From: Tetradesmus obliquus
Lineage: Eukaryota; Chlorophyta; Chlorophyceae; Sphaeropleales; Scenedesmaceae
Assembly (NCBI GenBank): GCA_030272155.1
Contig: CP126205.1
Location: forward strand, 124,001-188,000
DNA length: 64,000 nucleotides
Direction: 5' to 3'
The translations under genes were made by a program, and so were the position numbers. Below the pieces are notes generated by a model. That model had not been told where the DNA came from. It worked only from the letters and a program-made list of their open reading frames with translations, and made no database searches. Each line of letters starts with the position of its first letter. Position 1 is the first letter of the stretch. This document shows, piece after piece, positions 8,461 through 63,947 of the stretch.

Positions 8461-10362
8461 TTCAGCAGCAGCAAGCAGGCGGCAGGCGATGACAGTCTTG
8501 TATGCGGTGCAGCATAAGCAAACACAGCGGGAATAGCCAGTGCTGCTGATGTGCATGCACATCCCGCCAGCAGCCTGCCAGCCACTCACCCAGTTGCTGC
8601 TGCAGCCAGGTGTTGGCCTCCTGCAGCTGCGCCACCTGCTGCTGCAGCTGGTGCGCCTGCGCGTCGCTAGTTCCGCCTCTGCTGCCTGAGCTGCCGCTGC
8701 TGCGCTGCGCGCTGCCAGGCATGCCTGGCGAGCCTGTGGAGGCTGCTGCGGTGCGTGCTGCCAGTGCCAGCGTCTCTGCGCGCAGGCGTGCCAGCTCCTT
8801 GTCCTGCAGCTCGTGCGACTGCTGCAGCGCCACCACGCGCTGCTGCAGCGTGGACACCTGCAGGGCAAGAGTGTCGGAGCTGCGTCAGCAGCTTGGCTTG
8901 ATGTTCTTGCTTGCAGAACAGCAACGCCAGGGTTGATGACGTCGCTTGCAGGAAAGCAACTGCTGGGGTTGACGATCCCGCTTGCAGGAAAGCCACCGCT
9001 TGCGTCGACGTTCTCGCTTGCAGAAAAGCCGCCGCCTGGGTTGATACTCTAGCATGCAGGAATCCCAGGCGCAAGCGCAACTTCTGCATCATCAGTTCAC
9101 ACAGCCTCAGCAAACCAAGCAGGAACAGACCACGCGATGGAACTGCTTCAAAGCCCCAGCAAAGGCAAGCAACCACAGCACCACCACCCCAAGCCCCACC
9201 ATCCCCACCTGCTCCTCCAGCATTTTGTTGCGCTGCTGCACCATGCCCAGCTGCCCGCCAGCAGCCGCCACGTCCATGCCGCTGCGGTACTCGCGTGCAC
9301 GCTGCGCCGACAGCAGCCCCTCCAGCTCAGCCACCCTGCGGGATACACCGGAGCCAGCACGTCAGCTACAGTGCCATGCAGTGATATGCGCAGCACAGCG
9401 GCAGCACAGCGTTTGACCCATACGTGCTCACAGCAGCAGCCCCTCCAGCTCAGCAACCCTGCGGGTGGGCAGCAGCATGGTGTGTGGAGCAGAACACAGC
9501 TTGCAATGAATTCTTGCAGGCAGCGGCAGCATGACGATATAACCAGAACACGGCAGATTAAACCGCTTGTAGCGGGTGCAGCAGACGAGCGCCAGCTCCA
9601 TGTTACATGCTGGGGCATGTGACACCACCAGTCGTGTGCCAGGATCCAAGGCACATGTTGTACAGCTAGCACGCTGCTGGTTTGGCAGCAGCGTAGCTGG
9701 CCCTTGGCTGCATGAACACAAACGGTTTCCGTGCCCCTGCAGATGCACGCGCACCTGCTCTGCTCCAGCTGCAGGCGCGTGGTGAGCCCCTCAATTTCAG
9801 CCTGTGCATCCCCCAGCCGGCCTTGCATCAGCCCCAGCTGCGCATCTGCGCCAGCCAGCTGCCGCTGCAGCTCCTCACGCCCACGCTCAAGCATCAACCG
9901 CACCTGACAAAACACAGGCAGCAGCACACCAGCACACAGGCGTCAGGGGACAGTCTGTACAAGCATCCTCGAATGACATGTGCGCCACTCTACATTGATG
10001 CGCCCACGCTCAAGCATCAGCCGCACCTGACACAGCACAGGGGCAGCAGCACCGCAGCAACACACAGGTAGGAGCCAAACGGCAGTTGTGCTAGCAGCCG
10101 TACTTGACCAGCAAGCCGTTCTGCGTTGCTGCGCCCAGGGTGGTTGCAAATGCAGACAAGGAGCCAGTGAGCTACAACTGTTGTGCAATGCTGCCTGTGC
10201 CGCCTGGCCTCACCTGCAGCTGAGCTGCTGGGCTGCTGCCTGTGCCGCCTGGCCTCACCTGCTGTGCAGCTGCCAGCTCACCCAGCAGCCCCTCCCGCTG
10301 CGCCGCCACCTCCTCGCCATCAGCAGCACCACGCGAAAGCTGCCGGCTCAGGTGGTCAACCT

Positions 10363-10401
<39 letters not shown>

Positions 10402-10503
10402 GTTGAACCCCACAGGGTGCTCAGTGTTCCAGAATCCTGCCTCTTGCTGCTGCTTCTGCTGCTGCTGTCGCGGATTTTCTTCAGCACTACTACCTGATCT
10501 GCT

Positions 10504-10536
<33 letters not shown>

Positions 10537-22672: not shown

Positions 22673-24243
22673 ATGAACGTTTGCAGATCAAGGAGCAGCT
22701 CAACTGCATGCTTCAGTGGTCGCACCTACGCAGCACACACCAGCTCTGTTCACAGAGCTCCGCGCACGTGCAGGAGGCATACGCTGCGCATTAACGCACT
22801 ACTGAAAACGGTGGGAATGCAATGCGCAGCTGCAGCAGCGGTGAAGACCAGCATCCCGCAAACTGAACCTTCTGGAGCAGCAGCAGAAGCAGCAGCAGTG
22901 TCAGCCATTGCATGTGAGGCCAACACAGTTCCAGGAGAAGTGAACAGCATCATCTTGCCAATCAAACAAGTATCTTGGTTCTTTGGTGGTCAAGCTTGCA
23001 GCTCGCGCGCTGAACTGCCCTCAGGTACATGCCAGCATCTCCTGCACACCAACCGTATTCCATTGACATCTGCGTGCACACACAACCCATCATGGGCATG
23101 GCATGCCCTTACAGGCAGAGGGTGTATCAGCCAGCTGGGAGCGAGACCACCGACGAGGTGCAGCTGCGCGTGCCTGTGCTCACCGACTTTGCCGCCCCTG
23201 CATGCACACACGCCCACACATACATGCCCCCCCACAGGCAGAGGGCGTATCAGCCAGCTGGAGCCAGACCACCGACAAGGTGCAGCTGCGCGTGCCTCTG
23301 CTCACCAAGTTTGCCGCCCCTGCATGCACACTGTATGCCTCCGCAGGCGGAAGGTGTGTCAGCCAGCTGGAGCCAGACCACCGACAAGGTGCAGCTGTGC
23401 ATGCCTCTGCTCACCTACTATGCTGCCCCTGCATGCACATTTTGTGCACACACAGGCGGAGGGCGTGTCAGCCAGCTGGAGCCAGAACACCGACGAAGTG
23501 CAGCTGCGCGTGCCTGTTGATGCCAGCGTGCGTGGCCGGGCTGTGTCCCTTGAAGTGCACCCGCTGCGGCTGAAGCTGGCAGTTGAGGGCGCCACGCTGC
23601 TGGAGGGGCGGCTGGAGGATGTGGGCAGCATCAGAGCAGATGGTGAGCGGGCTGGCAAGTGATTGAGGCGCGGCAACGCTGCTGGGCGGCCCGTTGGGGT
23701 TGTAGGCAGCTGGTTAGAATCGGCAGGGCAGCAGCAAAGGGCTTGTAGCTTGCAGGGAGCCAGCGGGTGCGGTAGAGACGGGTGGGGTGCAGGAAGCGTG
23801 GGCGGTGGGCGGCAGCACGCTGCTGGAGGGGGGGCTGGAGGATGTGGGCAGCATCAGAGCTGATGGTGAACGGGCTGGCAGCTGGTGAGGTGTAACGGTT
23901 GCGCTGGGCAAGCAGCAGTGCTGAGCAGGCGGTCAGGCTGGGCAGCTGGTTGTGCTGGGCAGGCTGCTGGGCCGAATGAGCGCGGCAGCAGCGCAGGGCT
24001 TGTGGCTGGCCGGAGGCTAGCGGGTGCAGCAGGGAGTGGCAGGGTGTCAAGTCATCTATGTGTTAGCAGCAGCAGCAGCAGCAGCTGTCAGCTTGTGCTT
24101 CTGGCCACAATTTGTTTGATTCGTACCACACTATGAGTCGTCTTTGATTGGCATGCAGAGTAGGCAGCACTTTTGCGTGCAACCAGGGAGCTGTACGAGT
24201 GTCTTGCCACAGCAATATGCCCCGGCACCTGCGTCCCTGACGG

Positions 24244-24287
<44 letters not shown>

Positions 24288-24448
24288 CTGCTGTGGCCTC
24301 TGCGTGCTTCAGACTGCTTTTGGACGCTTGCGACGGATGACGCTGACGGCTTCAAGTACGTCTCCATCACCCTGGTGAAGGGCACCATGGGCTACCACCC
24401 ACCCTGTCTGTGCAATGCTTCTAAAAGCGCTGCTGCTGCCGCTGCCTG

Positions 24449-24490
<42 letters not shown>

Positions 24491-25693
24491 GACTTGCCGC
24501 CTGCCGCAGACTGCTTTTGGACGCTGGAGACTGACGATGCTGATGGCTCCAAGTTCGTCTCCATCACCCTGGTGAAGGGCACCATGGGCTACCAGTCATG
24601 GGATGCGCTTCTGGAGAGTGACCGGCCTGACGTCACAGTCACACACAGGGTGAGGGGCAGGGGGGTGACACAGCCGTGTGCCTGCAGCAACGTTTGTTGG
24701 TGCTGGTCAGCTGCTGGTGTTGTGCGCAGAATGGCTGCAGGCACCCGTACATGCTCTCTGTGCACGGCTGTCAGTGATATCTCAGCCAGGCAGTGCTGCT
24801 TTCTTGCACCACCACCGCTGTGTGTGCACCAACAGGTGGCGCTGGATGTGCCTGTGGGCGAGCGCATGGGGCGGCTGGTGCTGGGTTCAGCAGTGCTGTT
24901 TCACCGCACTTGACTGCACAACATGACCAGCATGGCATGCTTTTCTGTGCGCCTCCTCTCACTGCCTGGTGCCTCACAGGTGGCACTTGACGTGCGCGTG
25001 GGAGAGCGCATGGGCCGGCTGGTGCTGGGCCTCTTCGGCAACACAGTGCCAAAAACAGTGGAGAACTTCCGCGCCCTGGTCACTGGGGAGAAAGGCACCG
25101 GCAAGTCTGGTTCTGCGCTGGCCTTGAAGGGCAGCCCCTTCCACAGGGTTATCCCGGGGTTCATGGCTCAGGGTGGTGACATCACGCTGGGCAATGGCAT
25201 GGGAGGGGAGTCCATCTATGGCGAGTCCTTTGCGGTGAGTGAGCAGAAATGATGTGAAGAAAACCTATTTACATCGGTCTTTTGTGGGTTATAGGTTGGT
25301 GTAGGAGGGGAGGACAGCTTGAACAGGTGCGGAGAACTTGTGAGTTGGGATGCCACCCCAGCAGTGCATGCTGCAGGGTGGGATAACATATAACAAGTCT
25401 GTGCAGGGTGAGGAACATTGCTGTTGACACATGCGGTACAACACAGAGAAACCACTTCTGCTGCTAGCTAGCAGTGCATGTATGTTGGCACTTAACCGCC
25501 CTCAGCTGTTTTTCGGCACGCACAATGCTGCTGCCTTGCCGCTGCTGCTGCTGCTGTGTGCACTTTGCCTCCTGCCAGGATGAGAACGTCAAGCTGCGCC
25601 ATGACAACCAGGGTGCTGTGGCGATGCGTCGGGCCTCTGTTGCTGACTGGCATAGACACAGCAGCTCTTACTGCCTGTCTCACTGGCACTCAC

Positions 25694-25738
<45 letters not shown>

Positions 25739-31011: not shown

Positions 31012-32747
31012 TCAGCCCTCAGCCAGCATCTCCTGCAACAGCTGCTGCTGGTGTGCCAGCTTCACAGCAGCAATCACCTCCCCCAGCCTGCCGCCCTCCA
31101 TGAAGCGAGGCACATCGATGTTTATATTGAGCCCCACGCGGTGGTCCACCACGCGACCGTCCTGGTAGTTGTAGCTGCGGATGCGCTCGTTGGTGTTGGC
31201 GTTGCCTGCGGCCGCCTTGCGTTGCGCGGACTGCTCCCTTGCATGCTTCTGCAGCTCCATCTCATAGAGCTTGGCCCTGCAAGAAACGGCAAGCGGGTCA
31301 GAGATTAGCGTGCGCCCGGCACAAGATGCAGGGCAGCACATTCTGAATGGGTAGAGGTTGCAGATTGACAGAGTGCAGCAACCTGCAAACCACAAGCACG
31401 CAACACCTGCGCATTCAATGAACTTGCTTAGTAGGCGTAGTAGTCAAGCTGAACATGCCCGGCAGCCCGCCTCATTCTGCTGGGCAGCCCCGTGCTCACC
31501 ACAGCACCCGCAGCGCCTGCTGAACTGCAGTGAGGGCAAATGAATGCTACTGCAGACTATCCAAGGTTGCAGGACATGTGGAATACGCACAGGCAAAGTA
31601 CTGTTCAACTATGCTGTGTGTTCCTGCAAGCTGCAGATGCTAGGCAGGTGTGCAGCCCCAGTGCTCACCGCAGCACCCGCAGCGCCTGGCTCCTGTTCTG
31701 GCCCTGGCTGCGCTCAGAGTGCACCCAAGCTGCAAATTTCAAGCACGTGGCACACACATGTACGTGATGATGAGCCCGCTCACCGCAGCACGCGCAGCGC
31801 CTGGCTCCTGTTCTGTCCCTGGCTGCGCTCGTTCTGGCACGACACCGCAATGCCCGTAGGCAGGTGCACCACGCGCACCGCGGAGTCTGTGGTGTTGACG
31901 TGCTGCCCGCCTTTGCCGCTGGCCCTGCACGTCTCTATGCGCAGGTCTGTGTCGGCTATACTGACCTCAACCTGCGCAGCACAGCAGCGGCGGCAGCACA
32001 CCAGCGCTTGGTTTGCTGTCACATAGGCAGAGCGGCACAGGGGCTCGGCCTTGATGCAATCAGCTCACCCAGAGCAGCAGCTGCTGCAGCAGCATCCTGG
32101 GGATTTGGGTGCCCTGTGTGTGTAGTTTGCCACTGCACATGTGCGGTGCAGGCAGGCAGGCAATTGTGACTTGCAGCACACAGCATACGCCGCCACCACG
32201 CAGCCAAACGCAGAGCTGACAACCTGAGCACCCCACTGCGCCAGCTACGTCCTGCTGCCAGGGCTAGCTAAACCTCTCGCACCTCAGAGGCCTCAGGCAG
32301 TGCAATGACCACCGTCGTGCCCGTCTGCATCTTGCCCTGGCTGTTGCTGGGCACCATGGTCACTCGCTTTGCCATGAACACTTCCTGCCAGGCTATGCAT
32401 CTTGATAACCCAGGCTCCTGCTTGGCCCTGCCACACTACTACGCACCTCTGAGGCCTCCGGCAATGCAATGACCACGGTCGTGCCGGTCTGCATCTTGCC
32501 CTGGCTGTTGCTGGGCACCATGGTCACGCGGTGCACGCCGCTCTCCCAACGCAGCTGGCCGAACGCCCCTGGCCCGCTGATCAGCGCAGTGGCGGACTTG
32601 ATGCCACCAGAATCGCCCGATTTTGACTCCAGCACCTGGCAGCAGCAGCAGCAGCAATCGCAGCAGCAGTACGTAAATCAACACGCCTGCTGACCAGCGC
32701 AGTGGCAGCCTTGATGCCGCCATACTCGGCTAACTTCAACTCCAGCA

Positions 32748-34354: not shown

Positions 34355-35452
34355 ATGCAGCTGTCACATGTGCGCACACCTCACCGAACCTCAACACACC
34401 TGTGCCTGCCGCCGCAGCCCTCACCTGCTGCTGTAGGCCTGCCAGCTCCTCCTCAGCCAGTGCTGCCAGCTCGCTGTCGCCCTCCCCTGACGCCAGCTCA
34501 GCCAGACCTTGAGCCTGCAGCAGCCATGGCAGTCACACAGCAGTACTTTGTGAGCAGCAGGCATGCACGCAGGAAAGCAGTTTCTCTGGTGCCGCCAGCC
34601 AGCTCGCTGTCGCCCTCCCCTGACGCCAGCTCAGCTAGACCTTGAGCGTGCAGCAGACAGACACATAGCACTCATCAGTAGCAGACAGGCTTGGTGAGTG
34701 GCGCAGTGCAACTTTGCGCTTGAGTTGAGCAGCAGGCAGGCCTGGCGCAGGCTCAGCCAGGCCAGACGCCTGCAGCAGCCAGCCCAGCTGCACGACAAAG
34801 CATACAATCAGCAGAAAGGGTACGGTTACATAAATAGTAGCTGCCCCGCACCTCTTTCTGCAGCCGCTGCAGCTGCTGGTAGCCCTCCGACAGCGGCAGC
34901 AGTGCAGCCGACTCCTTCATCAGCCGCTGGTACGCCTCGCTGGCTGGGCTGGTGTCTGCAGGAGAAGAAACAAAGGCACTGATGACTGAGAAAAGAATGC
35001 AACAGAAGAGACAATAAAGGCCTCTGCTGCACTGGTATTGCGCATGCTGTGAAATTTGTCAGATGCGTTGCTGCTGCCACTGCTGGTGCTGCTACCCCTG
35101 GTGCAAGGTGCTGTAGCTGATCGTGATGCGGCTTGATCGAAGGGATGCTTCACACACCTGCTATGGTGTCTTGTAGCGCCTGATAGCGGCTGTGCGCCTC
35201 TGCTAGCTTGCGTTCTGCTACCTCCTGCATGCTGTCTTGTAGTTCGCGGGCGGGAGCTGCGTAGAAGCGCCATGCCTGCTGCTGCCTCGCCCACAACGCA
35301 TAGTCTATGCCGGGCTGTACTGCTTGTATGCTTGGCGATGCATGCTGCACATTGGCTGCGCATATGGCGGCAGTTGTATGCTGCCCCAAGCATTGGTCAC
35401 TCGCAACGCTGGTTGCACGCAGCAGCCGAGCCAGTTGGCGCGTAAATCTCAT
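31012..35452 (-). CDS. MTRF1: Mitochondrial peptide chain release factor 1, 435 aa, 7 exons
   Basis: Class I release factor that reads stop codons and triggers peptidyl-tRNA hydrolysis. Exons 35452-35158, 34955-34852, 34514-34425, 33420-33244, 32635-32447, 31971-31784 and 31276-31012 join in phase. The first 40 residues ([17 protein letters not shown]) look mitochondrial. The catalytic loop [15 protein letters not shown] is intact. The decoding domain is unusual: bacterial HRVQRVP-x-T is HRVTMVPSN here and the loop is one residue shorter, HTS is QTG, and GG(D/E)EAALF is GGEWVVGF. In bacterial RF1 these positions contact the stop codon. Sphaeropleales are known for changed mitochondrial stop codons, so a matching change in decoding is plausible. 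Exons 3-6 each have echoes in the flanking introns. Confidence 0.92.
31480..31715 (-). repeat. Donor-side echoes of release-factor exon 6
   Basis: The exon end encoding SQALRVLR with donor (31783) recurs with the donor near 31671 (about 55 bp of match) and near 31499 (about 35 bp of match). Match length shrinks with distance. Confidence 0.85.
32282..32392 (-). repeat. Donor-side echo of release-factor exon 5
   Basis: About 95 bp repeat the exon end ([20 protein letters not shown]) with the same donor-side bases, about 165 bp downstream of the real donor at 32447. It also preserves the PSN variant. Confidence 0.88.
32694..32756 (-). repeat. Acceptor-side echo of release-factor exon 5
   Basis: The copy reads [18 protein letters not shown] after a CTGCCAG acceptor, against [18 protein letters not shown] in the exon at 32635. 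Spacing is 119 bp. CAG runs lie between and beyond. Confidence 0.85.
33060..33140 (-). repeat. Donor-side echo of release-factor exon 4
   Basis: Reads [22 protein letters not shown], a diverged copy of the exon end [21 protein letters not shown] at 33310-33244. Distance is about 185 bp. Confidence 0.85.
33575..33632 (-). repeat. Acceptor-side echo of release-factor exon 4
   Basis: Reads [15 protein letters not shown] after a CAG acceptor. The exon at 33420 reads [15 protein letters not shown]. Spacing is about 210 bp. Confidence 0.85.
34195..34790 (-). repeat. Echoes on both sides of release-factor exon 3
   Basis: The exon is 34514-34425. Acceptor-side copies lie upstream at about 34590-34645 (near-perfect) and about 34735-34785 (decayed). 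A donor-side copy encoding [19 protein letters not shown] lies at 34206-34262 with its donor. This is the clearest case of one exon echoed in both directions. Confidence 0.85.
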
Positions 35453-39100: not shown

Positions 39101-42100
39101 AGCCTGTCCCCAACATCAGCCAGCATGCGCTCAGCAGCAGCCAGCCTCCTCCTCACATCCTTTGCAGCAGCCTCCGCAGCAGCACGCCCAGCAGCTTCGC
39201 CAGCTAGTGCGGCCTGCGCTGCTGCTGCTGCCGCCTGCGCAGCCGCCAGCTGCTCCATACCATTGGTGCTGAATTCGGTTGCGCGGTCGAGCTCAGCTTG
39301 CAAGGATGCCGCGCGCTGCTCTGCGGCATCACCTGCGGCCTGCGCCTGCTGCAGCTGCTCCTGCAGCGCGACAGCGTGTTGGCGCGCAGCTTGTAGCAGC
39401 TGCTGCGTGCTGGCAAGCTGCTGCTGCAGCCCGGCTGCCAGCTGCTGCTGCTGCTCCAGCTCAGCCTGCAGGCACACATGTGGGAGCAAGTCATAGGCCA
39501 TATAAAGGGCCGCAGCATGTATTGACCTGGCTGTTCTGCCCCCAACTACCCCCATTTAAATCACCAACAGCCAGTTGCAACAGGGAGACTGCAGCATGCA
39601 GGATGTACCACCTGAACTGCAGCTGCTGCAGCACTCTGTTTCAACATACAATGCTCTGGTGATCTTTGCGGCGACCTCCCTCTGCTGCATTTCCTGCAGG
39701 CCTGCCTATACCGCGCCTGTGCCGCTCACCTGCTTATCAGCCAGCTGCTGCAGCAGCTGCGCCTCGCGCTCTGCTGCTGCAGCTCGCTCCTGCTCCAGCT
39801 GGGCAGCCAGCTGCTGCTGCTGCTCCCTCTCAGCCGCCAATGCAGCCGCTGCCTCCTCTGCTGCCTTGGCAGCCTCTTCACGCGCCTGCAGGCATCGTCA
39901 CAGCAGCAACAGCAACAGCAGTGGTGACGCAGCAAGCACGCACTTCCAAGCATGCACCCCATGCTATACAGAAAGACGTCAGCCTGCTCAACAGCAGCCC
40001 GTTCAGCACCTTGCTTCTCCCACACACACCTGCTGCTGCTGCTGCTGCTGCGCCTCTAGCTGCTGCCACTGGTGCTGGGCACGGCCTCAAAGCAGCAAAA
40101 CCAGCACCACAAGCTCACAGCAAGCATACTCTGTGCCACTTTGCTTGCAGCTCTTCTGGCACCCCCCCACCGCACACACACCTGCTGCTGCTGCGCCTCC
40201 AGCTGCTGCCTGTGCTGCGCCCGCTCCTCCTCCCAGGCCTCGCGCTGCTGCTGCGCCTGTTGCTGCGCCTGCCGGGCTGCCTCGTCTGCTGCATCCTCCA
40301 GCGAAGTGATGCGGCCGTCTTTCTCGTCCAGCTGCCTGCGCAGTGCCTCGTTGGCCTCACGCAGCTCCTGCGGGCACAAACAGATGCACCACAGTCATTG
40401 GTGCGCAGTGTCAAGCATGTAATATCGTTCAGCTGCCTGCGCAGCGCCTCGTTGGCCTCACGCAGCTCCTGCAAGGCATGAAAAAGAAGATGTGGTGCGC
40501 AAGTGACGTCACATTGTCAATTTGCTGGTTGTGATGCGGGCGTCCTTCTCGTCCAGCTGCCGCCGCAGCGCCTCGTTGGCCTCACGCAGCTCCTGCGGGT
40601 TGTAAACAGATGCACATTGGTCGCAGTAACACAAGGGGGCTGCAACACAACCAAAGGTGCGCAGTGTTGAACAGGCAGCATCGGCCGACTGCCTCCGCAA
40701 CGCCTCGCTGGCCACGCAGCTCCTGTTACACTTACAAACAACAGCACACTGACTGTGGTTGATGGGGAGCAGATCACACAATATCCTTCCTGGCTGGTGT
40801 GGACACGTCACCATGCCTTGCTGGCCTCACGCAGCTCTGGGGGGCGGCTGCAACACAACCACAGGTGCGCGTTTAACAGCATCCAGTATCATTCCGTGCC
40901 CACCTTGTTGTTGTCCAGCAGCCGCCGCATCTGCTCGGTGTCATGCTCCACGCTCTCACTGCGCACGCGCTGCAGGCACGGGCAGCAGCAACACCAGAAG
41001 CAGCAGGCAGACAGCAAGCCGTTTCAGCAAGAGTCTGAGGCATGCCAATTTGTGATTGGCAGCACTATAGCACAGCGCAAGCACAACTGCATGCTGCGTA
41101 CTTGGCAAAGGCAGGTCAGCATGGCTTGACAACACCAAGCAGCATGCTGCCAACCCCTGCCCTTCCCCTGCTTTCGGCCCTGCTGCTCACCTTCTTGGCC
41201 CTGCCCGCACTTGCTGGTGCCGCTTGCTCCTGCTGCTGCTGCTCATCAGCCTCCTCAGCCACCAGCTCATACCTGCAGCAGCAGCAGCAGCAGCAGCGGC
41301 AGCGCCGGATCACCAGCAAGAAGGGCAGCGAGGCGGCTGATCGCACACAGCATCAGAACTACCAATCTGGGCCTGTGGAGGTGGCCCAGGCAGGGCGCAG
41401 TTGCATCTGCTGCTGGTGGTGTTAAAACTGCAGATGCCCTTGGACACAAGGGCAGACGCCGTATCATTCACCATACCCGCAACCACCATTACCAGCGCAT
41501 CACTGTCCAGAAGACGCCTGCCACATTGCTGAGGCCAGCTGTGGCTGCTACAGCTGCTGCCGCCGCTACTGCATATACAACTGCTGTGTTGCTTTGCTAC
41601 ATGAACAGCCGCTGTGTTGCTGCTATGCCGATGTGCTGCTGCAGACAGTGCTGCCACTCCCTCCACTGTCTCGACGAAGCCGCTGCTGGCTACTGCTAAT
41701 GATGACGATGACAACACGATACTGCACAGCTGCTGGCTGTAATTGAATTGAAGTCTCAGCTGCACTCACTCCACTGTGTTGACGAAGCCACTGTTAGCGG
41801 GCGCTGCTGCTGGTGCCGCTGGCGCCACCAGGCTCAGCCCCAGGCGCTGCCCAGGGAGCAGCGTGCCGCTGTTGCCCTTGCCGAGCTTGGCTCCATCAAT
41901 GAAGGTGCCGTTGGTGCTGGTGTCCTTCACGTGCCAGCTGCCCTGCAGAATGAAGTGTGATGGTGTGCAGCAGGGATGTATGCACAGCAGCAGCAGCAGA
42001 CAGCAGAGTGAAGGGCGATCTGCCACGAGCAGCCCCGCACTTGCGAACAAAAGAATGCAGCCGCATCCTGCAAGCATACCAATGAATGCACGATTGCATC

Positions 42101-43751: not shown

Positions 43752-46700
43752 CTATGGCTTGACGGGGAACATGATGATGGCTATCAAGACAAGCATCAGC
43801 ACTGTCACTAAATTTTCAACCCAGGCTGGAGCTGCTGCAGGCTCTGCTCTGTTGCAGACCGCAAGCTGCTTTAGAGAGGCAGCAGGCAGCAACTTGCCGT
43901 GCTGCCCTGCTGCACGTGGCTGGGTCTGACTGTTCTGCAGGCTGAGGTTGAGCCCGCTGTGCTGCAGGCCACACGCTGCTCTGCGCCTGGGCCAGATGAA
44001 GCAGGCAGCGGCATCTGGCTGCGCTGCCCTGCTGCACGAGGCCAAGTGCGGTCGCTGCGCAGGCCTGAAGGCGCTGTGCTGCAGGCTGCTTGCTGCTGTA
44101 CGCCTGGGCTGGAAGAAGCAGGCGGCAGCTGGCTGCGCTGCCCTGCTGCATGTGGCTTACTCTGACTGATGTGCAGGCCTGAAGACGAGCCTGCTGTGCT
44201 GCAGGCTGCACGCTGCTCCGCGCCTGGGAAGGAAGAAGCAGGCAGCGGCAGCTGGCTCTGCTGCCCTGCTGCGTGGGACTCACTCTGACTGCTGTGCGGC
44301 CCTGAAGACGACCCCAATGTGCTGCAGGCTGCATGATGCTCTGAGCCTGGGCCAAAGGAAGCAGGCAGCGGCATCTGGCTGTGCTGCCCTGCTGCCCAGC
44401 GCAGCAGAGGCTGAGTGCGGTCGCTGCGCAGGCCTGCAGGAAGCCTGCTGTGCTGCCGTCCACATGCTGCCTCACGCCTGGGCCAGAAGAAGAAGGCAGC
44501 AGCAAGTTGATGCGCTGCACGAACTTAGTGTGACTGCTGCGCAGGCCTGAATACGAGCCTGCTGTGCTGCAGGCTGCATGTTGCTCTGCGCCTGGGCCAG
44601 AAGAAGCAGGCAGCGGCAGCTGGCTCTGCTGCCCTGCTGCACGTGGCTTACCCTGACTGCTGCACAGGCCTGAAGATGAGCTTGATGTGCTGAGGGAGGC
44701 ATGCTGCTCTGCGCCTGGGCCAAAAGAAGCAGGCAGCTGCAGCTGACTGTGCTGCCCTGCTGCATGGGACTGAGTCTGACTGCTGCGCAGGTCTAAAGAT
44801 GAGCTTGATGTGCTGAGGGAGGCATGCTGCTCTGCACCTGGGCCAGAAGAAGCAGGCAGCGGCAGCTGACTGTGTTGCCCTGCTGCATGGGACTGAGTCT
44901 GGCTGCTGCGCAGGCCTGCAGGCGAGCCCGGTGTGCTGCGGGAGGCATGCTGCCTTGCGCTTGGGATGGAAATAGCAGGCGGCAGCTGGGTGCGTTGCTC
45001 AACTGCTTGAGGCGGAATGCGGTCGCTGCGCATGCCAGCTGTGCTGCAGGCTGCATGCTGTTTTGCGCCTGGGCCAGAAGAAGAAGGTGGCAGCTGGCTG
45101 TGCTGCCCTGCTGCACGGGGCTGACTGATGTGCAGGCCTGAAGATGAGCCCGCTGCGCTGTAGGCTGCATGCCGCTCTGCGCCTGGGCCAGAAGAAGCAG
45201 GCAGCGGCCGCTGGCTCTGCTGCCCTGCTGCGTGGGAATCACTCTGACTGCTGTGCAGCCCTGAAGACGAGCCGGCTGTGCTGCAGGCTGCGGGCTGCTG
45301 TACACTTGGGATGAAAGGAGTAGGCAGCAGCAACTGGCTGAGCCGCACTGCTGCACAAATTTCAGACTCTGACCATGGACAGCGCCTCACTTGGCGCCCT
45401 GCCTGCAGCTTCTTCAAACAGCTGCAGCCTGGCCAGCTGCTCGCCCACAGTTGAGTGGCAGCCTCCGCTAGGTCTGCTGCTTCCTCAGCTGTCAGGCTGG
45501 CCACCTGCAGGCGCTGCTTGCACTCGTCTGACCCAAGCCATGGCAGCAAGATTGGCAGGAGTACAGCCAGCTTGTCCAATGCGATAATGCTGCGCCAGCC
45601 TTTGGTGTCGATCAGTTTGTACCTCACATAATGCTCAAGTTTTGGGCTGCTGCAGCGCAGCAGCTGCAGCACCTGCTCTGCGTCAAGGCTGTCCTCAGGA
45701 TAAGCTGGATCAAGCTTCAGTGCTGCAAAGACACTGCTCCAGTCACATTCCACTGCAGCGCCATCTGCAGCAACTTGAACACTTTGTCTATGCTGCAAGG
45801 CTGCCGTGCCACACTGATGTTAGTGCTGAAAAATATATCTTCTCGACACACCAGCTGCTCCGCCACTTCACGCATGCCTGCTTGGAGGGCCACTGTCACC
45901 GATGGCAGCAGCCACTGCATGATTGCATCACCATCCCTTGCTGCAGCCACATCTGGTTTGCGCATGCTGTAGCACAGACGTTTGATGGTGATTGTGAGCC
46001 ACTTGGTGTCTGCTGTTGCTGCTGCTGCCACTGCTGTGATTGTGCCGGTGAGGATTGAAGTCACTGCTTGTGGGTTCAGCTGCCGGAAAGCTTCAGCGTG
46101 ACTGAGCGTAGAGAGCACATCAACACCACTGTCAGAAGCCATGAGTGCGGCCTGTACAAGGTCAATCAGCTGCGATCTGCCTATGTCTGGAAAAGTTGGG
46201 AGGCCACTCAGCCAATCAAAGCAGTGGATGTCACTGCCAACCTCCAAGGCCGTGTGCAGCAGGCCAGCCACGCTGTCTGCTGAAATGCTGCTGACTGGCA
46301 GTGCCCTGTTCAAGTCACCCAAGTAGCGGAACACGGGTTGTGCATATTTTGACGGTTGCGTGTGTACTGCCACTGCATGCTGCAGCACTGGAAGCAGCTG
46401 GTCTCCTGACAGCTGCCAAGGCTGCTGAACATGATGCATTGCTGCAGACATGTGCTTCAGCGCATTGTTGCCTGCATGTCGCTGTATTGCCGTGTAGAGC
46501 AGCTCCACCACCTCAGCAGCAGGAAGCCTCGGCAGCTGCAGCAGCATGCTTGCTGCTGCTGCTGCTACTGTTGCTGTGTTGCTGCTGTTCAGCCCAAGCA
46601 TGGCGAGTTTGAACATAGCACCGTCCTGCAAAAGGCAGAGATGGCAGCAGCATAACTCACAGCATCGGCCAAAGCATTGGCTACTGCCAGCACATAGCAC

Positions 46701-48079: not shown

Positions 48080-49560
48080 AACTGGCCTGTAGCATCACTT
48101 GCCTTGACCGGACATCACTCACTGTGCGCAGCATACAACATATGTCAGCCATTACCCACGGGCTCCCTGCACAGTCATGGGCTAGCCGCCTAGCAACTGC
48201 GCATATCAGCACTTGCCTTGAGTCAGCAACACTCACTGTGCGCAGCATACAGCGAATGTCAGCCGCTACCTGCGGACACTTCTGCAAAGCTATCCAGTAG
48301 CTGGTGACCTGTTCATGACCAGGCTGGTCGCACGGCAACTGGCCCATAAAAGCACTTGCCTTGACCAGGCAGCACTGACGAAAGGCAGCACTCACTGCTT
48401 GGACGAGGCAGCATTCACTGTGCGCAACGTAAAGCGTATGCCAACCACCACTCGGGGCCTCCCTGCGCACTGACCAGGCTAACCGCCTTGCCACTGGCGC
48501 ATAGCAGCACTTGCCTTGATTAGGCAGCACTCACTATGCGCATGACGCAGCATACAGCGTATGTCAGCCGCGACCCGCAGGCTCTCTGCACAGTTACCAC
48601 GCTAGCCGCCCGGCAACTGGCCCATACCAGCAGTCGCCTTGACCAGGCAGCACTCACTGTGCGCAGCATACTATGCAGTACAGCGGATGTTAGCCGCTAG
48701 CCATGGGCTCTCAACACACTCATCAGGCTAGCCGCCCGGCAACTGGCCCATAACAGTAGTCGCCTTGACCAGGCAGCACTCACTGTGCGAGCATACTATG
48801 TAGTACAGCGTATGTCAGCTGCTACCCGCCGGCTCTCTGCACAGTTGCCAGGCTAGCCGCCCGGCAACTGGCGCATAACAGCAGTCGCCTTGACCAGGCA
48901 GCACTCACTGTGCGCAGCATACTATGTAGTACAGCGTATGTCAGCCGCTACCCGCAGGCTCTCTGCACAGTTGCCAGGCTAGCCGCCCGGCAACTGGCCC
49001 AAACCAGTAGTCGCCTTACCCAGGCAGCACTCACTGTATGCAGCATACAGCATATGTCGGCCTACACGCAGGCTCTCTGCACTGCTACCAGGCTAGCCGC
49101 CTGACAACTGGCCAGTGAACAGCACTTGCGTGGACCACGCAGGACTTACTATGCGGGACATGTAGTGCCTGCAACCGCTATCCGCAGGCTCTCTGCACAG
49201 CTACCAGGCTAGCCGCCTGGCAACTGGCCAATAACAGCACGTGCCTTGACCAGGCAGAACTTACTGTGTGGGGCATGTAGTGCGTAGCAACCGCTACCCG
49301 CGGGCTCCCTGCACAGCTACCAGGCTAACCGCCTGGCAACTGGCCAACACATAACACTTGCCTTGACCAGGCAGAGCTTACTGCGCGCAGCATGCAGCGT
49401 CTGGCAGTCAACCACTACCCGTGGGCTGCCTGAACAGCCATCAGGCTAGCCGCCCAGCAACTATTCAATAAGCAGCACTTGCCTTGACCGGGCAACAGTT
49501 GCTGTGCTTTGCATGTAGTACACTATGAGACAGTCCACTGTGCGCAGCATGTCCTGCCTG
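48080..49560. repeat. Satellite array, 12 or more units of 113-126 bp with a hairpin each
   Basis: The motif CTAGCCGCCCGGCAACTGG and variants recur at about 48182, 48328, 48478, 48602, 48728, 48853, 48979, 49092, 49208, 49325 and 49446. The most regular part (48602-48979) has a period of 125-126 bp. The best units contain CAGTTGCC-A-GGC, loop TAGCC, GCC-C-GGCAACTG: an 11-bp stem with one mismatch and a five-base loop. Other shared blocks are CAGGCAGCACTCACTGTGCG and GCGTATGTCAGCCGCTACC. No unit has long open frames. Units diverge toward both ends. Confidence 0.92.
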
Positions 49561-51669: not shown

Positions 51670-54600
51670 ACTACTGCTGCCTTGCTGCCGACGCAGCCGC
51701 TGCCGGAGCCTTCGCCAGCAGCGCTGCCGCCGGCAGCTGCTGCAGCTGCACCTGCTGCAGCTGCACCTGCTGCAGCTGCACCTGCTGCAGCTGCACCTGC
51801 TGCTGCTGCCTCTGGTGCCGGCTGCCGTGCAGGCACCTCTACACGCACCTGCAGGTTGGCAAGGACGAGTTTCACAGTACAGTGAGAAAGGCCACCCAGT
51901 GTCAACAACAGCAACTCCATGGCACATGGCAGGTCAAGACGCGCCCAGCGCCCAAGGCTTGCCACCATCAAAGCCCCTGGCCCCTGCCGTTACAAGAAAA
52001 GGATTTGTGTTCTGATATAAGAAGTGCAACGCTGACACCTTGATCCGCACCTGGCAGGTCAAAAACACGCCCAGCGCCAAGGGTTTGCCGCCGTCAAAGC
52101 CCGTCGTGCCCTTTCCTATATCATGCATTGATCCACTATGTTATACATTGATCCACTAAACAAAGTCATGCCCAAAACTACACCTTGAAACACACCTGGC
52201 AGGTCAAAAACACGCCCAGCGCCCAGGGCTTGCCCCCATCAAACCCTGTGGCCCCCTTTGTCTGCGTGATCTCCAGCTGCAGCGCCCACTCATAGCCGGC
52301 ATGGCTGTGCGCAGGGCTCCTCAAAATGCGGCTGTCCCTGCTGCCAGCAGCAGCCACCTCTTCATACAGCTGCCGAATTGCTGCCATATCTACATGCCAC
52401 TGGAAGAAGCAGGAGCGCTTGCAGGAAGCTGCCCTGGGGCGTTGTGCTGCATGCGCCAGCTGCAGCAGCTGCAGCTGCTGGTCAGCGCTGCAGGACTGCT
52501 GCTGCTGGCACCAGCTGCAGAAGCGGCCGCTGCTGCTGCTGAGCCCCCAGGGGCCTGCGGGCGCCCCTGGCGCAATCGCACTGCTGCTGCTGCTGCTGCT
52601 GCTGCCGGCTGCACCTGCTGCAGTGAATGTCAATGATTCGCCGCTGCAGGTGCAGCAGGAAGAAGACGCCCGCCCGCCAGCCTGACCGCTGCTGCTGCTG
52701 CCGCTACCTGCTGCGCCGCCGCCATCGCCAGCATGGCCTGCTGCTGCTGCTACTGCTGCCGCCTTTTCTGCTGCATTGACCGAGTCCCGTGTGTGCTTAA
52801 GGAAGTCAGCGCGCACCTCCGCTGCTGCTGCTGAAAAGGCTGCTGCCCTTGCTAGCGCTGCCACATCGAGTGACAGCCTAAACCAGTCGTGCTGCAGTGC
52901 TACATATGACAAATAACAGGGCCCCATGCCTGGCAGGCGCACTGAGGCAGCCAGCTGCTGCAGGTCGCGGGGTGACAGTGCCCGGCCATACACGCCGGCT
53001 GCATTGGCCACCCATGAGGACAGCGCTGCAGCACAGAGTAACAGCAAAGAGATGGCAGCAATTGAGCAAGCGAGTGAGAAAGATGGGAGCAACAAGAAAG
53101 AGCGAGAGGCGGGCAACGAGAAGCAGTGCATCAGCCACACTGAGGCAGCCAGCTGCTGCAGGTCGTGGGGTGACAGCTGCCGGCCATACATGCCAGCAGC
53201 ATGGGCCACCCAGGACGACAGCGCTGCAGCGAGGGGAGGCAGCACAGAGATGACAGCAACTGAGCGAGTGAGTGAGGAAGATGGCAGCACTGAGCAAGTG
53301 AGAAAGATGGCAGCAACAAGCCACAGGGAGAGGCGGAGGTGGCAACGGGAAGCAGTCCATAAGCCGCACTGAGGCAGCCAACTGCTGCAAGTCGCGGGGT
53401 GACAGCGCCCGACCATATATGCCGGCAGCGTGCGCCACCCAGGAGGACAGCGCTGCAGCAAGGGGAGTCAGCACAGAGGTGGCAGCAACTGAGCGAGTGA
53501 GCGAGGAAAACAGCAGCACCGAGCGAGTGACAAAGATGGCAGCAACAAGCCAATGGGATGGGGGTGGGTGGCAGCGGCAAGCAATGCACAAGCCGCGCTG
53601 AGGCAGCCAGCTGCTGCAGGTCGCGGGGTGACAGTGCCCTTCCATACACGCCAGCAGCGTGCGCTACCCATGAGGACAGCGCTGCAGCAAAGGCGATGCA
53701 GCACAGAGATGGCAGCAACAAGCGAATGACAAAAGGGGCATAAGCGAGTGAAAAAGATAGCAGCAACAAGCCAGAGGGAGAGGCGGAGGTGGCAACGGCA
53801 AGCAGTGCACAAGCCGCGCTGAGGCAGCCAGCCGCTGCAGGTCGCGCCGCTGCCACAATCACACCAATAAACAGCGCATCAAGCTGCCAGCACAGCTGCA
53901 TGTCTCCCGCCCTCAGGCACTACCAAGCATGCCTGCAGCCGCTCCACAAGTCCTCTGACTCACCCGCATACACAGTGTGTCTTGCTGGCCACTGCCAGCG
54001 AATCACTCTTTGCCAGTGCCGCCACCGCCCTCAGTGGCAGCTGCTGCCATCAGCACTGGCCCCACCGCCTCACCCACCTCCTCGTCTCAGCACACGCCAC
54101 TGGCCACAAACTTCCAAACAGCAAACCAGCTGTCAGCACAGCTGCACTTCCCCCCCTCCCATGCACAGCTCACACTACAATCACTTGACGTTATAACTGA
54201 ATTGACCAAACCCCCTCACCTGCAAACACGGTGTTCTCACTGGCCACTGCCAGCGAGTCACTCTTTGCCAGTGCAGCCACTGCCCTCAGCGGCAGCTGCT
54301 GGAACAGCGCCCGTCCATCCGCAGAGGCCCAGCTGTCTTCTAAGTCACCAAACAGCTGCAGCAGCCTGTCCCAGGCCACCTGCCGCAGAGGGGCCTGCTC
54401 GTCGGCCTCGTACAAATGTTCCTGCAGGCAGTGCAAAGCAGTGCAAGTAGAGTTGCTAGATGAGCACAAGTGGTAGTGTTTTGTATGGCAGATGATGACG
54501 ACCAAGCTGAGGCAGCTGCCGCAGGGGGAGGGGGCTGCTCGTCTGCCTCGTACAGGTGCTCCTGCAGGCAGGGTGAAGAGTGAAGTTGTTTGTTCCGCAC

Positions 54601-56683: not shown

Positions 56684-58233
56684 ATGGCGGACCCAGGCTT
56701 CTTTTCCAGACACAAGAATATATACATGTACTTGCCTAACTTGATAGGTATGGCCTATTGCTCCTGATTACGGGCAGCAGCAACATGCCTGTACATGCAC
56801 TGCCACCAGCAACTGTCCCCTGCCGCTGCTGTACTGCAGGATACGCCAGGATCCTGCTGACCCTGGGAGCGCTAGCATTCGCGTTCAGCTATCCCGAGCT
56901 ATGTGTAGGGGCATACTTCCTAGCGTAAGTACCAGCTACTGACACACTTGACGTCCAGCGTGCGCTGCAGCCCCTAGCCATTCGGCCAGCTGGCAGCAGC
57001 AGCACATGTGCAGCCCTGCTGCTGTGCCATGACCCACATTTCCACACGCACCGCAGAAGCAAGCTGCAGCACGTTGCAGATACATTACAGTCATAATGCC
57101 ATCTCATGTAACTGTTGTTTCAATATGCCTTGCAGGTTTGTGTGTGACGAGCTGGATGGGCGTGCCGCGCGCAGCTTCAACCAGACCTCAACGCTGGGCG
57201 CAGTGCTGGACATGGTCACAGACAGGCACGCAGCAGCAGCAGCAGCAGCAGCACTAGAACATAAACTTTAGCTTGCAGAAGCAGCAGTAGCAGCAGCAGA
57301 AGCAACATCAGAAGTAGCAGAACTTGCAGCTGTGGACATGTGTCACATCAGATGTGTGTTGTCACGAGGCACCTTCAGCGCCAGCAGCAGCAGAGCTTGC
57401 AGCTGTGGTCATGTGATGTATGTTGTCGCGTGTTGTCAGATGTCTGTGTGCAGCAGTGTCGGCCGTGCCAGTGCGTCATTATGAGAGCCTGCCGTGCGTT
57501 GCATGGCACAGCAGCCAGCCAGGGCCAGCAGCGCTCACGCAGCTGTGCAGACGCTGGCAATCTCTGGCTGACAAGGCATGGCATGCCGTATGTCTAGGCA
57601 GCAGGTGGGGCAGCAGCACCTGTCACATCATACCGGCAACGGCTTTCCCCCGAGCAAACCCCCTGTTGGTGCCGCTGTTGTGCCTGATTTGCGCTGCTGC
57701 GCCCGCCTGCCGCTGCTGCACCCCCACCCATACAGGGTGGCCACCACTGGCCTGCTGGCGCTGCTGTGCTTCACTGTGCTGTGCCTCACCCCACTGCTTT
57801 CCCACTTGCTTGCTGTACCCACAGGGTGGCTACCACGGGCCTGCTGGCGCTGCTGTGTGCCACCTACCCTTCGCTGCACCTGCTGTTCATCAGCTTGATC
57901 GCGCTGGACATCTTCAGCCACTGGTTCCAGATGTACGCCAGCCTGCTGGCAGGCGCAGCATCGCACAAGGTGGGGTGGGGTTGAGGGTTTTGGCTGTTAG
58001 ACATTAGGGTTTAGGTACAAACCTGCCGTTCATCAGCCTGATCGCGCTGGACATCTTCAGCCATTGGTTCCAGATGTACGCCAGCCTGCTGGCAGGCGCA
58101 GCATTTCACAAGGTGGGGTGGAGTTGAGGGTTTTGACTGTTACATGTTAGGGGTTAGGTACAAACCTGCTGTTCATCAGCCGGATTGTGGGCGCAGCCAC
58201 ACACAAGTTGACTGCGGCGACGCGGGAGAGCCC

Positions 58234-58267
<34 letters not shown>

Positions 58268-60838: not shown

Positions 60839-61938
60839 CTACTGCTGCCTCTTGCCACCCCAGGTGCTGCCATGGCTGGCCTTGCTGCTGCCAGCAACAC
60901 GCTGGTTGGGGCCAGCAGCAACAGGCACAGGCGCAGCAGCAGCAGCCACAGGCACAGGAGCTGCAACATCAACAGGCACAGGCGTGGCCACTGTCACCTC
61001 AGTTTCTGTGATCACCTCGCCAGCGCTGCCAACAGAGGGAGCCACGGTTGTTGTTGTAACTGCTGCTGCCGGGGCAGGTGCGTCAGCTGCTGGTGCTGCT
61101 GCTGCTGGGGTGAATGCAGCAGCTGTGGCAGCTGTTGCTGTATCTGCGCTTGGTGCAGCAACATCTGCTGCTGCTGCTGCAGCAGGTGTGTCGGACACTG
61201 TGGTCACTGTGGTGGAGCTGCTCGTGGTGCTGCTGCTGCTGCCAACCTTGGGCGTAATCGCAACATTCACACCATCGATCGTCACACTCTTGGTGCCAAC
61301 AGCAGCAGCATCGCCATCAGCTGGGATCAGCTTCTCAATGCTGACCTCCTCGATCTGCGGCAGCCGCCCACGCAAGCCCGCCTTAATGGCAGCGGCGATC
61401 TCCTGGATGCCTGAGAAGTCAAACTGGAAGTTTGGCGTCGGCATAGCAGCCTCCTCTGGGGCTTCAACTTGAAGTGAGCTGAGCGCATCTGGCAGCTGCA
61501 TGCCTGTCACATTGTTGTTATTGTTGTTGCCTGGCAGCTTGCTCCTGATGAGTGCCTCCAGATCTGGCAGCGTCAGGCTGAGGCCCAAGCCCTGTGCCAT
61601 TGAATCATTGCTGCTGCTGCTGCTGCCGGGTAGTGCCAGCGGCAGCTTGGGCCATTTGGTGAGGGTGGCGCCAAGGCTGGAGATGACATCGGCAACATTG
61701 GGAACAGTGATCTGTAGCAGCAGCAGCAAGAGCAGCAGCTGGCGTGAGACATTGCAACAGGGATAGCCATCGCAGCAGGCTGTGTGGTATGTGCAGCTTG
61801 ATATGCAGGTGGGAGCAACAGAAGCAGCAGCAGCAGCAGCAGCAGCAGGAGGTTTGAATAATTAGGGCAGCTTGGGCCACTTGGTGAGGGTGGCACCCAG
61901 GCTGGAGATGACATCGGCAATGTTGGGGACGGTGATCT

Positions 61939-61981
<43 letters not shown>

Positions 61982-63947
61982 CTGGATTGAGATGTGCTTG
62001 AGGAGTAGCAATTGCAGCAGCAATTGGTGTACGCAGTGACACTTGTAACACTATCCAGCAAACTCCTGCTTGAAAGCTAGTGCTGACAATCACCAAGCTC
62101 ACCGTGGGCAGGTCGATCTTGGGCAGCCTGAAGTTCAGCTTCTGTGGCGCTACAATCGTGGGCAGCGCCGTCAGCCGCGGCAGCACCTGGCTCAGCGCGC
62201 TGCTCTGGTTGTGGTTTAGCACGATGATGGGCAGGTTTAAACCCTTAGGCGGCTGGAACAGCGGCAGGCTGATGTTGGACACCAGCAGGGCAGGCGCGAT
62301 GAAGCCGTCGACCAGGCTCTGCAGGCCGCGGATGACCTGCTCGTGCAGGCGCAGCTCAGGGACCTGCAGGCATCAAAGAGATGACAGTGCAGGGGACACA
62401 GCATCAGAAGCAGCAGTGGTGGCAGCACGGTGATAGTATGCGGCACTGGCAGGAGTGCACAGTGGATGCATGACCTGCTCGTGCAGGCGCAGCTCAGGGA
62501 CCTGCAGGCATGCAGCAGCAGCAGCAGCAGGACACACTGCTTCATCGTTACACTATGCGGCACTGGAAGGTGTACACAAACTCGTGTAGTGACATGCTGC
62601 CAGCGCAGAGCGGCAGGCCTCCCTTTGGAGCAAGCCGCTGTGTGAAAACAGATTGCTGAGCGTCAAAGGTGCACTGCTGCTGCTGCCGCCTCACCTGCAG
62701 GTTCATGGCCTTGGCCGCCATCCACTGCATGACCGCGTCCTGGAAGCTCATGTTGAACACAGGGGGCAGCCGCGGCAGCGTGGGCACGCCAAAGGCGGGG
62801 GCCACGTCAAACAGGCTGGGGATGGTCACCTGCGGCACGGAAAAAACATGTCTGGTTGAGCGCACAAGGTAATGGCTGTACATATGTATGTGGCGGGCGC
62901 CACGTCAAACAGGCTGGGGATGGTCACCTGCGGCACGGCAGGGCGCGATATAAATTTCAAATACGTTGGCGGCGGATGTCTTGATGAATAAACCGATGCT
63001 GTGGAGTGAAAAGTACAGAAGGGATGTTTGTGTCGGAGGGGCACATGTGACATGTGAATAGCCTCAAGACATAGCAGGCTGGCAGCACATCAAACAGGCT
63101 GGGGATGGAAACCTGAGGGACAGCAGAGGCATGTTCATCATCAAGACCCGGTGATACATTGGCCTTTCACACAACAGCAGCAGCAAGTCAGAGTCGGCTA
63201 TGTGACCTGGCAGTAGGGTTCATGGTGAAAAAACATGATGCCTAGGACCTGGCCTCACCTCGGGCAGTGTGACTGTCACAGTGAGCATCACAGCACATGT
63301 TTGCAACGGAACTGCCACTGCGCCTTGGCCTCACTTCCGGCAGTGTTACTGTGGGCATCAAACAGCATGCGTGTATGTAACAGCAGTGAAGCGTAATCGC
63401 TGCCTAACCTGGCCTCACCTCGGGCAGTGTGACTGTCACTGTGGGCATCACAGGCTTGTGCAGGCGCGGCACCACCAGGGCAACATAAAGGTTGTAACAA
63501 AAAAATTGACACTGGCAGGACCAAACCTCACCTCAGGCAGTGTGACCGTGACACTTGGCATCACAGCACATGCTAACTTGTGATTCCGTTTTGCTGAACG
63601 AATGACCTGCTGGGCCTGGCCTCACCTCAGGCAGTGTGACCGTCACTGTGGGCAACACGGGCCTGTGCAGGTGCGGCACCAGGGCAACATAATGTTTGTG
63701 GCAGAAAACACCACACTGGCAGGCCCCAAACTCACCTCAGGCAGCGTGACTGTCACTGTGGGCTTTGCAAAACAAGTAAATAACACAATAACAGCCTGGC
63801 ATGCCCTCACCTCGGGCAGTGTGACAGCCACTGTGGGCAACACGGGCTTGTGCAGGCGCGGCACCACCAGGGTAGGCAGGCTGGTCAGGTCGGGGATGGC
63901 TGCAGCCAGCCGCCTCAGTGTGTTGTTGCCAGAGGGAGGCGTGAACA
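60839..63947 (-). CDS. Unrecognised Leu/Pro-rich protein, 5' part outside window
   Basis: Exons 63947-63811, 62829-62695, 62363-62103 and 61711-60839 join in phase and give 467 residues; the first begins in mid-codon, so more exons lie beyond the window. The first half repeats short Leu/Pro/Val motifs: LPTLVVPRLHKPVLPTVAV, VTIPSLFDVAPAFGVPTLPR, VLPRLTALPTIVAP, KLNFRLPKIDLPT. The last exon has ITVPNVADVISSLGATLTKW, a poly-Asn run, PQIEEVSIEKLIPADGD, and a tail rich in Ala, Val, Thr and Pro. I know no family for it. The alternating hydrophobic/Pro pattern suggests an extended, perhaps secreted or wall-associated protein, but that is a guess. Exon edges are heavily echoed. Confidence 0.7.
61869..61939 (-). 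repeat. Acceptor-side echo of the last exon (61711)
   Basis: Reads ITVPNIADVISSLGATLTKW-PKLP then a stop; nearly identical to the real exon start 228 bp later in the transcript. Its acceptor follows a CTG run of about 14 units (minus strand). Confidence 0.9.
61939..61980. repeat. CAG microsatellite (CTG on sense strand), about 14 units
   Basis: Directly precedes the acceptor of the echo at 61939 on the minus strand, so it occupies the place of a pyrimidine tract. Confidence 0.88.
62470..62505 (-). repeat. Acceptor-side echo of exon 62363
   Basis: VPELRLHEQV after CCTGCAG is repeated 139 bp upstream in the transcript; the copy then diverges. Confidence 0.85.
62898..63120 (-). repeat. Two acceptor-side echoes of exon 62829
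   Basis: VTIPSLFDVAPA with its GCCGCAG acceptor recurs near 62930; a weaker copy (VSIPSLFDV, acceptor CCCTCAG) lies near 63112. Spacing is about 100 and 180 bp. Confidence 0.85.
63245..63785 (-). repeat. Six donor-side echoes of exon 63947-63811
   Basis: The exon end encoding KPVLPTVAVTLPE with GTGAGG donor (63811) recurs with donors near 63737, 63626, 63527, 63417, 63327 and 63257. The copy near 63417 keeps about 60 bp, including the upstream LVVPRLHKPV codons. Others keep 25-40 bp. The one near 63327 has lost the splice context. Spacing is 70-110 bp. Confidence 0.88.

Follow-up and report, generated by a model that had tools for sequence, protein, structure and literature searches.

The window and its gene models

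The DNA considered here, called the window throughout, is a stretch of 64,000 nucleotides from the green alga Tetradesmus obliquus (positions 124,001 to 188,000 of contig C15), with a G+C content of 58.8%, in a genome of 104,662,953 bases assembled into 17 contigs. Introns of its genes hold direct copies of neighbouring exon edges and splice sites, and these copies are probably the product of recurrent local tandem duplication across splice junctions, the extra border being harmless inside the intron and decaying afterwards. Pfam matches support genes for a CDP-alcohol transferase of the PI-synthase type, an enoyl-CoA hydratase and an FHA protein. These names, given in a preliminary description of the window, could be kept together with release factor 1 (RF1) and cyclophilin; two others fared less well, in that a 351-residue piece of the BTB protein had no Pfam match and the protein at 60.8 kb had one below the curated cut-off only. 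A scan of the window against Rfam gave no match at gathering scores.

The main data are 264 kb of contiguous sequence, comprising the window and flanking stretches (L009-L028), and a side sample of 40 kb consists of four 10-kb stretches from other chromosomes (L029, L030, L031 and L032). One chromosome region supplies nearly all counts, and homology was checked for few genes. The copies are known from assembled sequence and predicted gene models, and BLAST ascertainment shapes every identity figure. Gene models were built ab initio with self-training on the 264 kb, and the genes of the window are partly merged or split in them. The consensus derived from the trained models was CAG/GTG for the donor and GCAG/ for the acceptor (the slash marking the junction). 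Since several copies were spliced in as exons by these models, the real junction was defined as the one where the exon runs more than 25 bp beyond the copy, the splice site of the copy itself being left unconstrained.

Direct repeats at splice junctions

With a limit of 3 kb, self-BLAST of the window gave 88 pairs, all of them direct, and in the 264 kb there were 349 direct pairs within 1.5 kb against 11 inverted pairs. A fifth-order Markov copy of the 264 kb, in which direct pairs only were counted, contained none. It is scarcely conceivable that the pairs reflect an assembly artefact or chance similarity, given this control, the nearly exclusive direct orientation, and the many substitutions and indels that separate the copies in many places. 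Offsets were studied in 212 simple pairs, kept from the 349 after exclusion of pairs in dense arrays; they peak at 110-130 bp and 230-250 bp, with a weak peak near 360 bp.

The pairs concentrate at splice junctions. Junction-containing pairs (J/I, I/J and J/J) make up 95 of the 212 simple pairs, where random shifting leads one to expect 43.8. The other classes are not in excess, with 23 intron-intron pairs (30.0 expected), 17 exon-exon pairs (26.9 expected) and 36 intergenic pairs (68.4 expected). Most of 59 high-identity pairs that were inspected are exon edges by the author's reading. An early control based on site content was too permissive for use, as 0.512 of control windows passed compared with 0.703 of pairs. 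Random templated insertion was rejected as a source, because it would draw on introns and exons equally often and there is no surplus of intron-intron pairs.

In the 264 kb, 163 copies of 114 predicted junctions were collected (83 of donors and 80 of acceptors), 40 copies of 29 junctions lying in the window. At least one copy was found for 77 of 726 junctions in one model set and for 109 of 1022 in the other, or about 10%. The offsets of the junction copies have a main mode at 100-140 bp and a second at 200-260 bp. More than 35 copies in 64 kb had been claimed in the preliminary description, together with a spacing of about 70-260 bp; the count holds, and most offsets lie at 100-260 bp.

The same description had stated as a strict rule that copies of exon ends lie downstream and copies of exon starts upstream. 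The rule is mostly obeyed and is not strict: among 169 hits, 147 are solely in accord with it and 14 solely at odds with it, and in eight both copies were called an exon edge. An earlier test on coding flanks had given 112 of 147, or 105 of 127 where the difference was clear. The rule calls for no special mechanism, because the only border that can remain functional is the one joined to the remainder of the exon. A duplicated donor leaves the exon intact only if the first donor is used, and a duplicated acceptor only if the second is. The set of 163 copies was itself built in the rule-consistent arrangement only, 29 copies in the opposite arrangement being left out along with dense-array pairs and offsets above 700 bp; within arrays, a copy may itself count as a junction (e.g. 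52050).

Pair density per 10 kb was 13.2 in the 264 kb and 2, 9, 0 and 4 in the four samples from other chromosomes. On inspection by eye, exon-edge pairs were present in L030 and L032, possibly in L029, and L031 had none. The process is thus not confined to C15. The genome-wide extent proposed earlier rests on this small sample of four 10-kb stretches, two of which, and possibly a third, agree with it.

Copies and other repeats in the window

The copies catalogued in the window are listed in Table 1. RF1 copies, one of them reading SQALRVL, and one cyclophilin copy lie within gaps when aligned to solved structures, which supports the choice of the real exon in the tested cases. The array at 63239..63776 was too dense for the set of 163 copies.

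Table 1. Copies of exon edges in the window, with the corresponding real edges
Position	Strand	Copy	Real edge and match
9434..9465	-	Exon start + acceptor; putative BLD10 gene (name from the preliminary description)	9311-9342; 97% over 32 bp, offset 123
23111..23455	+	Three tandem copies (unit ~109 bp) of acceptor + exon start, CS-cyclophilin gene	Exon start 23456
23816..23880	+	Exon end + donor	23593-23657; 95% over 65 bp, offset 223
24245..24397	+	Acceptor + exon start	24441-24594; self-BLAST
24832..24885	+	Acceptor + exon start	24976-25029; self-BLAST
25515..25626	+	Acceptor + exon start; in gap of alignment to solved cyclophilin	25685-25817
31481..31715	-	Two copies (31481-31519, 31663-31715) of exon end + donor, release factor 1 gene; in gap of alignment to PDB RF1	31778-31830
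32278..32366	-	Preceding RF1 exon end + donor; in gap of alignment to PDB RF1	32442-32530; 93% over 89 bp
34598..34659	-	Acceptor + exon start	34465-34526; 95% over 62 bp
40425..40615	-	Two copies of exon start ELREANE, FHA gene	40306-40389
51922..52114	-	Two copies of exon end + donor	52180-52259
53959..54046	-	Exon end + donor	54215-54301; 89% over 88 bp
54513..54586	-	Exon start	54377-54448; 80% over 76 bp
57732..57768	+	Acceptor + exon start (VATTGLLALLC), PI-synthase gene	57821-57857; 95% over 37 bp, offset 89
58021..58185	+	Full-unit tandem copy (143 bp) of exon end, donor and intron start, PI-synthase gene	57878-57974; 92% matches, 2.2 copies
61866..61964	-	Acceptor + exon start	61641-61739; 90% over 99 bp
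62470..62511	-	TGCCTGCAG + ~33 bp of exon start	62332-62373; 100% over 42 bp, offset 138
62892..63134	-	Two copies (62892-62938, 63086-63134) of acceptor + exon start	62794-62840
63239..63776	-	Array of exon-end copies (...TVTVTLPE/GTGAG); five BLAST hits from 63239, 63401, 63517, 63612 and 63731, and one degenerate copy by eye	End near 63811 (hit 63802-63843)

Other repeats were met in the window. Long arrays at 43899-45355 and 48459-49494 have periods of ~123 and 116-126 bp, near the preferred offset of exon-edge copies, and the first is largely read as coding by the trained models. An array with a unit of ~229 bp at 52934-53846 contains exon-edge copies of both kinds, which may mean that a small exon is repeated there in its entirety. 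A run of 32 G (58236-58267) stands in the PI-synthase intron directly after the tandem copies. CAG/CTG tracts are frequent and some border directly on a copied segment, where they could aid duplication or misalignment.

A dispersed repeat of ~140 bp lies at 30533-30673, and at least 39 further copies with 92-99% identity were found among the 40 of 447 candidates that were scored. The alignment of seven copies showed one common end (CTTTCTTTATAT on the minus strand) and one variable end, as expected of truncated retrotransposon or SINE-like copies. TTTAGGG repeats were seen at both ends of contig C1 and at one end each of C2 and C3, among the matches listed (872 matches of a 28-mer). Near the start of C1 (1170-4753, in the first 5 kb), single blocks of the TTTAGGG type follow each other at intervals of 889 bp and perhaps belong to a subtelomeric satellite.

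Decay of the copies

Changes private to one sequence were compared at 34 junctions with two copies comparable to the real exon. At codon positions 1, 2 and 3 they numbered 7, 4 and 37 in the real exon, 31, 17 and 37 in the nearer copy and 24, 39 and 71 in the further copy, a pattern which indicates constraint on the real exon and almost free change in the copies. In the codon counts, which covered 151 of the 163 copies (exon parts of low complexity were excluded, as were copies lacking a frame in the models), 80 frameshifting indels were found against 11 in-frame ones, together with three stop codons. Offsets modulo three (59/54/50) showed no preference for multiples of three. Coding constraint on the copies was rejected, as frameshifted and unshifted spaced copies have nearly the same codon pattern (excess of mismatches at position 3 of 3.27 and 3.55, respectively). 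Judged from their sequence, the copies look like decaying decoys.

The preliminary description had suggested that the process could create cassette exons, which would require a partner splice site at the exon-side end of the copy. Such a site was not enriched in the 51 copies scored, its frequency being 0.03 for the donor type (n=30) and 0.10 for the acceptor type (n=21), whereas randomly chosen spacer positions gave 0.08 and 0.15. The cassette-exon reading was dropped on this ground and on that of the frameshifts, and the formation of a new functional intron from the copies was rejected on the first. The fall of match length with distance given in that description is not supported: the exon part measures 57.2 bp at 0.912 identity in the nearest copies (n=34) and 57.9 bp at 0.892 in further ones (n=47).

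Retention of the exon half

The main puzzle, which was missed in the preliminary description, is that exon halves outlast intron halves. In a metaprofile of 28 copies with at least 90% identity, a set that demanded the splice site in both copies, exon identity is ~0.9 or more near the junction and falls steeply past the splice consensus. The drop is milder in the unconstrained set of 43 donor copies, where identity is 0.93 at the GT, 0.67 at +6 and 0.44-0.60 at +10 to +14. The intron half was scored for 136 of the 163 copies and found to be clearly copied in 22; it was intermediate in 25 and close to the background in 89, and these classes form a continuum; the earlier statement that flanking intron is copied too is thus clearly true of a minority. 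Comparison of the spacer with the sequence following the copy gave a collinear alignment with a median z of 2.0, 51% of values lying above 2 (57 pairs with at least 85% identity, full-unit copies included), from which a tandem origin of many spaced copies appears likely. Homology of one flank only was found in 35 of 95 spaced pairs, compared with 6.8 expected. A mobile element with a long target-site duplication was rejected as a source, because spacers seldom occur a second time within the 264 kb and are often similar to what follows the copy.

Duplication followed by decay was simulated with units of ~120 bp that were duplicated and then drifted, only the real exon being constrained, and several results weigh against this account. 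With equal rates, a first implementation gave 91% full units and 9% spaced copies (75 junction pairs with at least 90% identity) and a second gave 2% spaced copies (273 such pairs). The observed junction copies with hits of at least 90% comprise five full units and 33 spaced copies (n=38); when chosen by an exon-part identity of at least 0.9 (n=92) they comprise 32 and 55, a departure which is weaker yet large. Neutral drift at one rate was therefore rejected, both simulations being at odds with the observed shares. Faster drift of introns by 2, 4 and 8 times raised the spaced share to only 23, 42 and 55%, the exon and intron parts of the spaced pairs being 40-46 and 5-6 bp, and slowing of the copied exon part to 0.15-0.3 of the neutral rate gave 21-33%. 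In full-unit copies the ratio of intron to exon divergence is near neutral (an author estimate, with differing ascertainment), so that these copies give no sign of introns evolving several times faster in general. Spaced copies with an exon identity of at least 0.9 have a position-3 excess of 4.10 (27, 33 and 122 mismatches in 53 copies), where roughly 2-3 was the author's neutral expectation. Within copies, mismatches show mild clustering (P=0.0025, 130 copies), and the acceptor dinucleotide is kept in 0.88 of 26 copies at an exon identity of 0.8-0.9, above prediction.

The ratio of junction to intron-only pairs was 299:359 in the first implementation with equal rates, and in the second it rose from 877:441 with equal rates to 793:234 at a doubled and 730:118 at a fourfold intron rate. 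The observed 95:23 (simple pairs, any identity) lies between the simulated two- and fourfold intron rates. Plain decay, in sum, does not explain why the exon half and splice consensus are kept and the intron half is mostly unrecognisable.

One way to obtain such a pattern is unequal exchange between diverged homologues, by which the exon edge of one haplotype is joined to the intron of the other. As both edges would once have been functional alleles, one would expect at the same time that exon and splice consensus are conserved, that differences are biased towards silent ones and that the introns are dissimilar. The metaprofile does resemble a comparison of two functional junctions, with its cliff just beyond the splice consensus. 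The position-3 excess is 3.43 in spaced copies, or the above 4.10 at an exon identity of at least 0.9, and 2.56 in tandem ones, which leans towards a formerly functional exon, though the differences carry no formal test. Intron-only pairs would be hard to detect under such exchange and are indeed not in excess. Two T. obliquus assemblies of 17 contigs each (104.7 and 100.3 Mb) could represent two haplotypes. The exchange would require, by the author's estimate, intron divergence of ~30-40% between the homologues; the RF1 region has no second locus in the assembly beyond an adjacent 79-bp stretch, and the intron similarity of the copies is a continuum rather than two classes. On balance, exchange between homologues is rather unlikely.

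Selection that keeps the copies as splice-site decoys or as regulatory elements needing the exon edge and splice consensus is a less probable source of the pattern. It would account for the retention of the exon part and splice consensus with loss of the intron part (as in the metaprofile set requiring both sites), and for the dinucleotides kept at an exon identity of at least 0.9, in 0.93 of 43 donor copies and 0.90 of 49 acceptor copies, as well as for the high acceptor value at 0.8-0.9. In 18 arrays, moreover, the copies resemble each other about as much as they resemble the real edge (0.910 in 22 pairs and 0.916 in 38 pairs). Donor retention goes down to 0.68 of 38 copies at 0.8-0.9, near prediction, and the abundant frameshifts with nearly unchanged codon pattern, the lack of partner sites and the even distribution of offsets over the three frames all speak against selection.

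Gene conversion between the real edge and its copy, by which exon halves would be kept alike, agrees with the mild clustering of mismatches and is nevertheless improbable. Symmetric conversion was simulated with the real exon protected; the ratio of junction to intron pairs with at least 90% identity was 44:30 without conversion and was not raised by conversion at four rates (59:41, 133:138, 493:523 and 540:540), and spaced pairs reached at most 20%. A one-way template limited to the exon (e.g. cDNA) would be required, and this would not renew the splice consensus.

Faster turnover of introns combined with detection bias is taken as the default reading of the retention of exon halves. That exon edges and splice consensus are preferentially retained or renewed over intron DNA, be it through homologue exchange, selection of decoys or exon-limited copying, with introns lengthened by a process centred on junctions in place of ordinary random duplication, can be put forward only tentatively.

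Origin of the copies and its significance

Tandem duplication is favoured as the source of the copies because the pairs are nearly all direct, their spacing is near-fixed, full-unit copies exist and the intron halves show weak, collinear homology in about half of the 57 pairs scored; on the origin of the copies, the preliminary description, which is partly supported as a whole, thus gave the best account. Introns would grow through repeated local tandem duplication of segments of ~100-140 bp. When such a segment spans a splice junction, two borders would come to stand in tandem, of which the one contiguous with the rest of the exon would be used; the extra border, nearly harmless inside the intron, would drift as a non-coding decoy, and later duplications would build arrays. 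Full-unit copies are in a minority, the PI-synthase array being an example. A single duplication process may lie behind all copies, and its molecular cause may be slippage or the repair of staggered breaks through fill-in and end joining. Intron DNA may turn over several times faster than the exon-derived part, an assumption which brings the simulation nearer to the data.

With about one in ten predicted junctions having a copy of itself nearby, the role long proposed for tandem duplication in the growth of introns could be studied in bulk rather than case by case. Data from a second haplotype or another strain could resolve the quantitative anomaly seen in the retention of exon halves. Exon-edge copies also mislead gene finders.

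Comparison with known systems

Introners are dispersed elements that generate introns and leave similar inserts at unrelated loci. The spacers differ from them, in that only 4 of 101 had matches elsewhere within the 264 kb; by the author's reading, matches between spacers are CTG/CAG tracts or overlapping neighbours. No description of repeated exon-edge copies of such density, spacing and exon-half retention was found among the matches listed, which were searched by titles and openings of abstracts and cover subscription literature thinly. Duplication across a splice junction is known as a single event, and these three features are not described in the literature searched.

A close case is the RdRp gene of potato, in which a new intron arose from a tandem duplication that ran over the border of an intron and an exon (PMC4974935). 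As in the alga, the duplication spans the boundary with its splice signals, and an 83-bp duplication inside an intron is also described. It was a single event that gave a new intron and an inserted piece of exon, whereas the alga has many copies in existing introns, with no new exon detected. The Rogers model, an old proposal related in the same paper, derives intron gain from tandem duplication of exon segments containing AGGT (PMC4974935), and near-intron pairs in Drosophila are candidates for such gain (PMC2891723). Local tandem duplication is a source of intron sequence in these cases too; there both splice sites derive from the exon, whereas the algal copies hold one existing junction and a partner site is not enriched.

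With regard to mechanism, the fill-in of staggered breaks can yield small tandem duplications (PMC8355091). These are short, local and direct and arise by break repair, which makes the process a candidate for the alga; the breaks in question were made by CRISPR in cultured cells, and the passages concerned draw no link to splice junctions. Among green algae, the introns of Chlamydomonas and Volvox have been found to be dense in tandem repeats (PMC3887541). That work gives motif statistics, and its passages cited here do not deal with exon-edge copies; it has in common with the present findings that introns of green algae are rich in tandem repeats, and that these are denser near the junctions.

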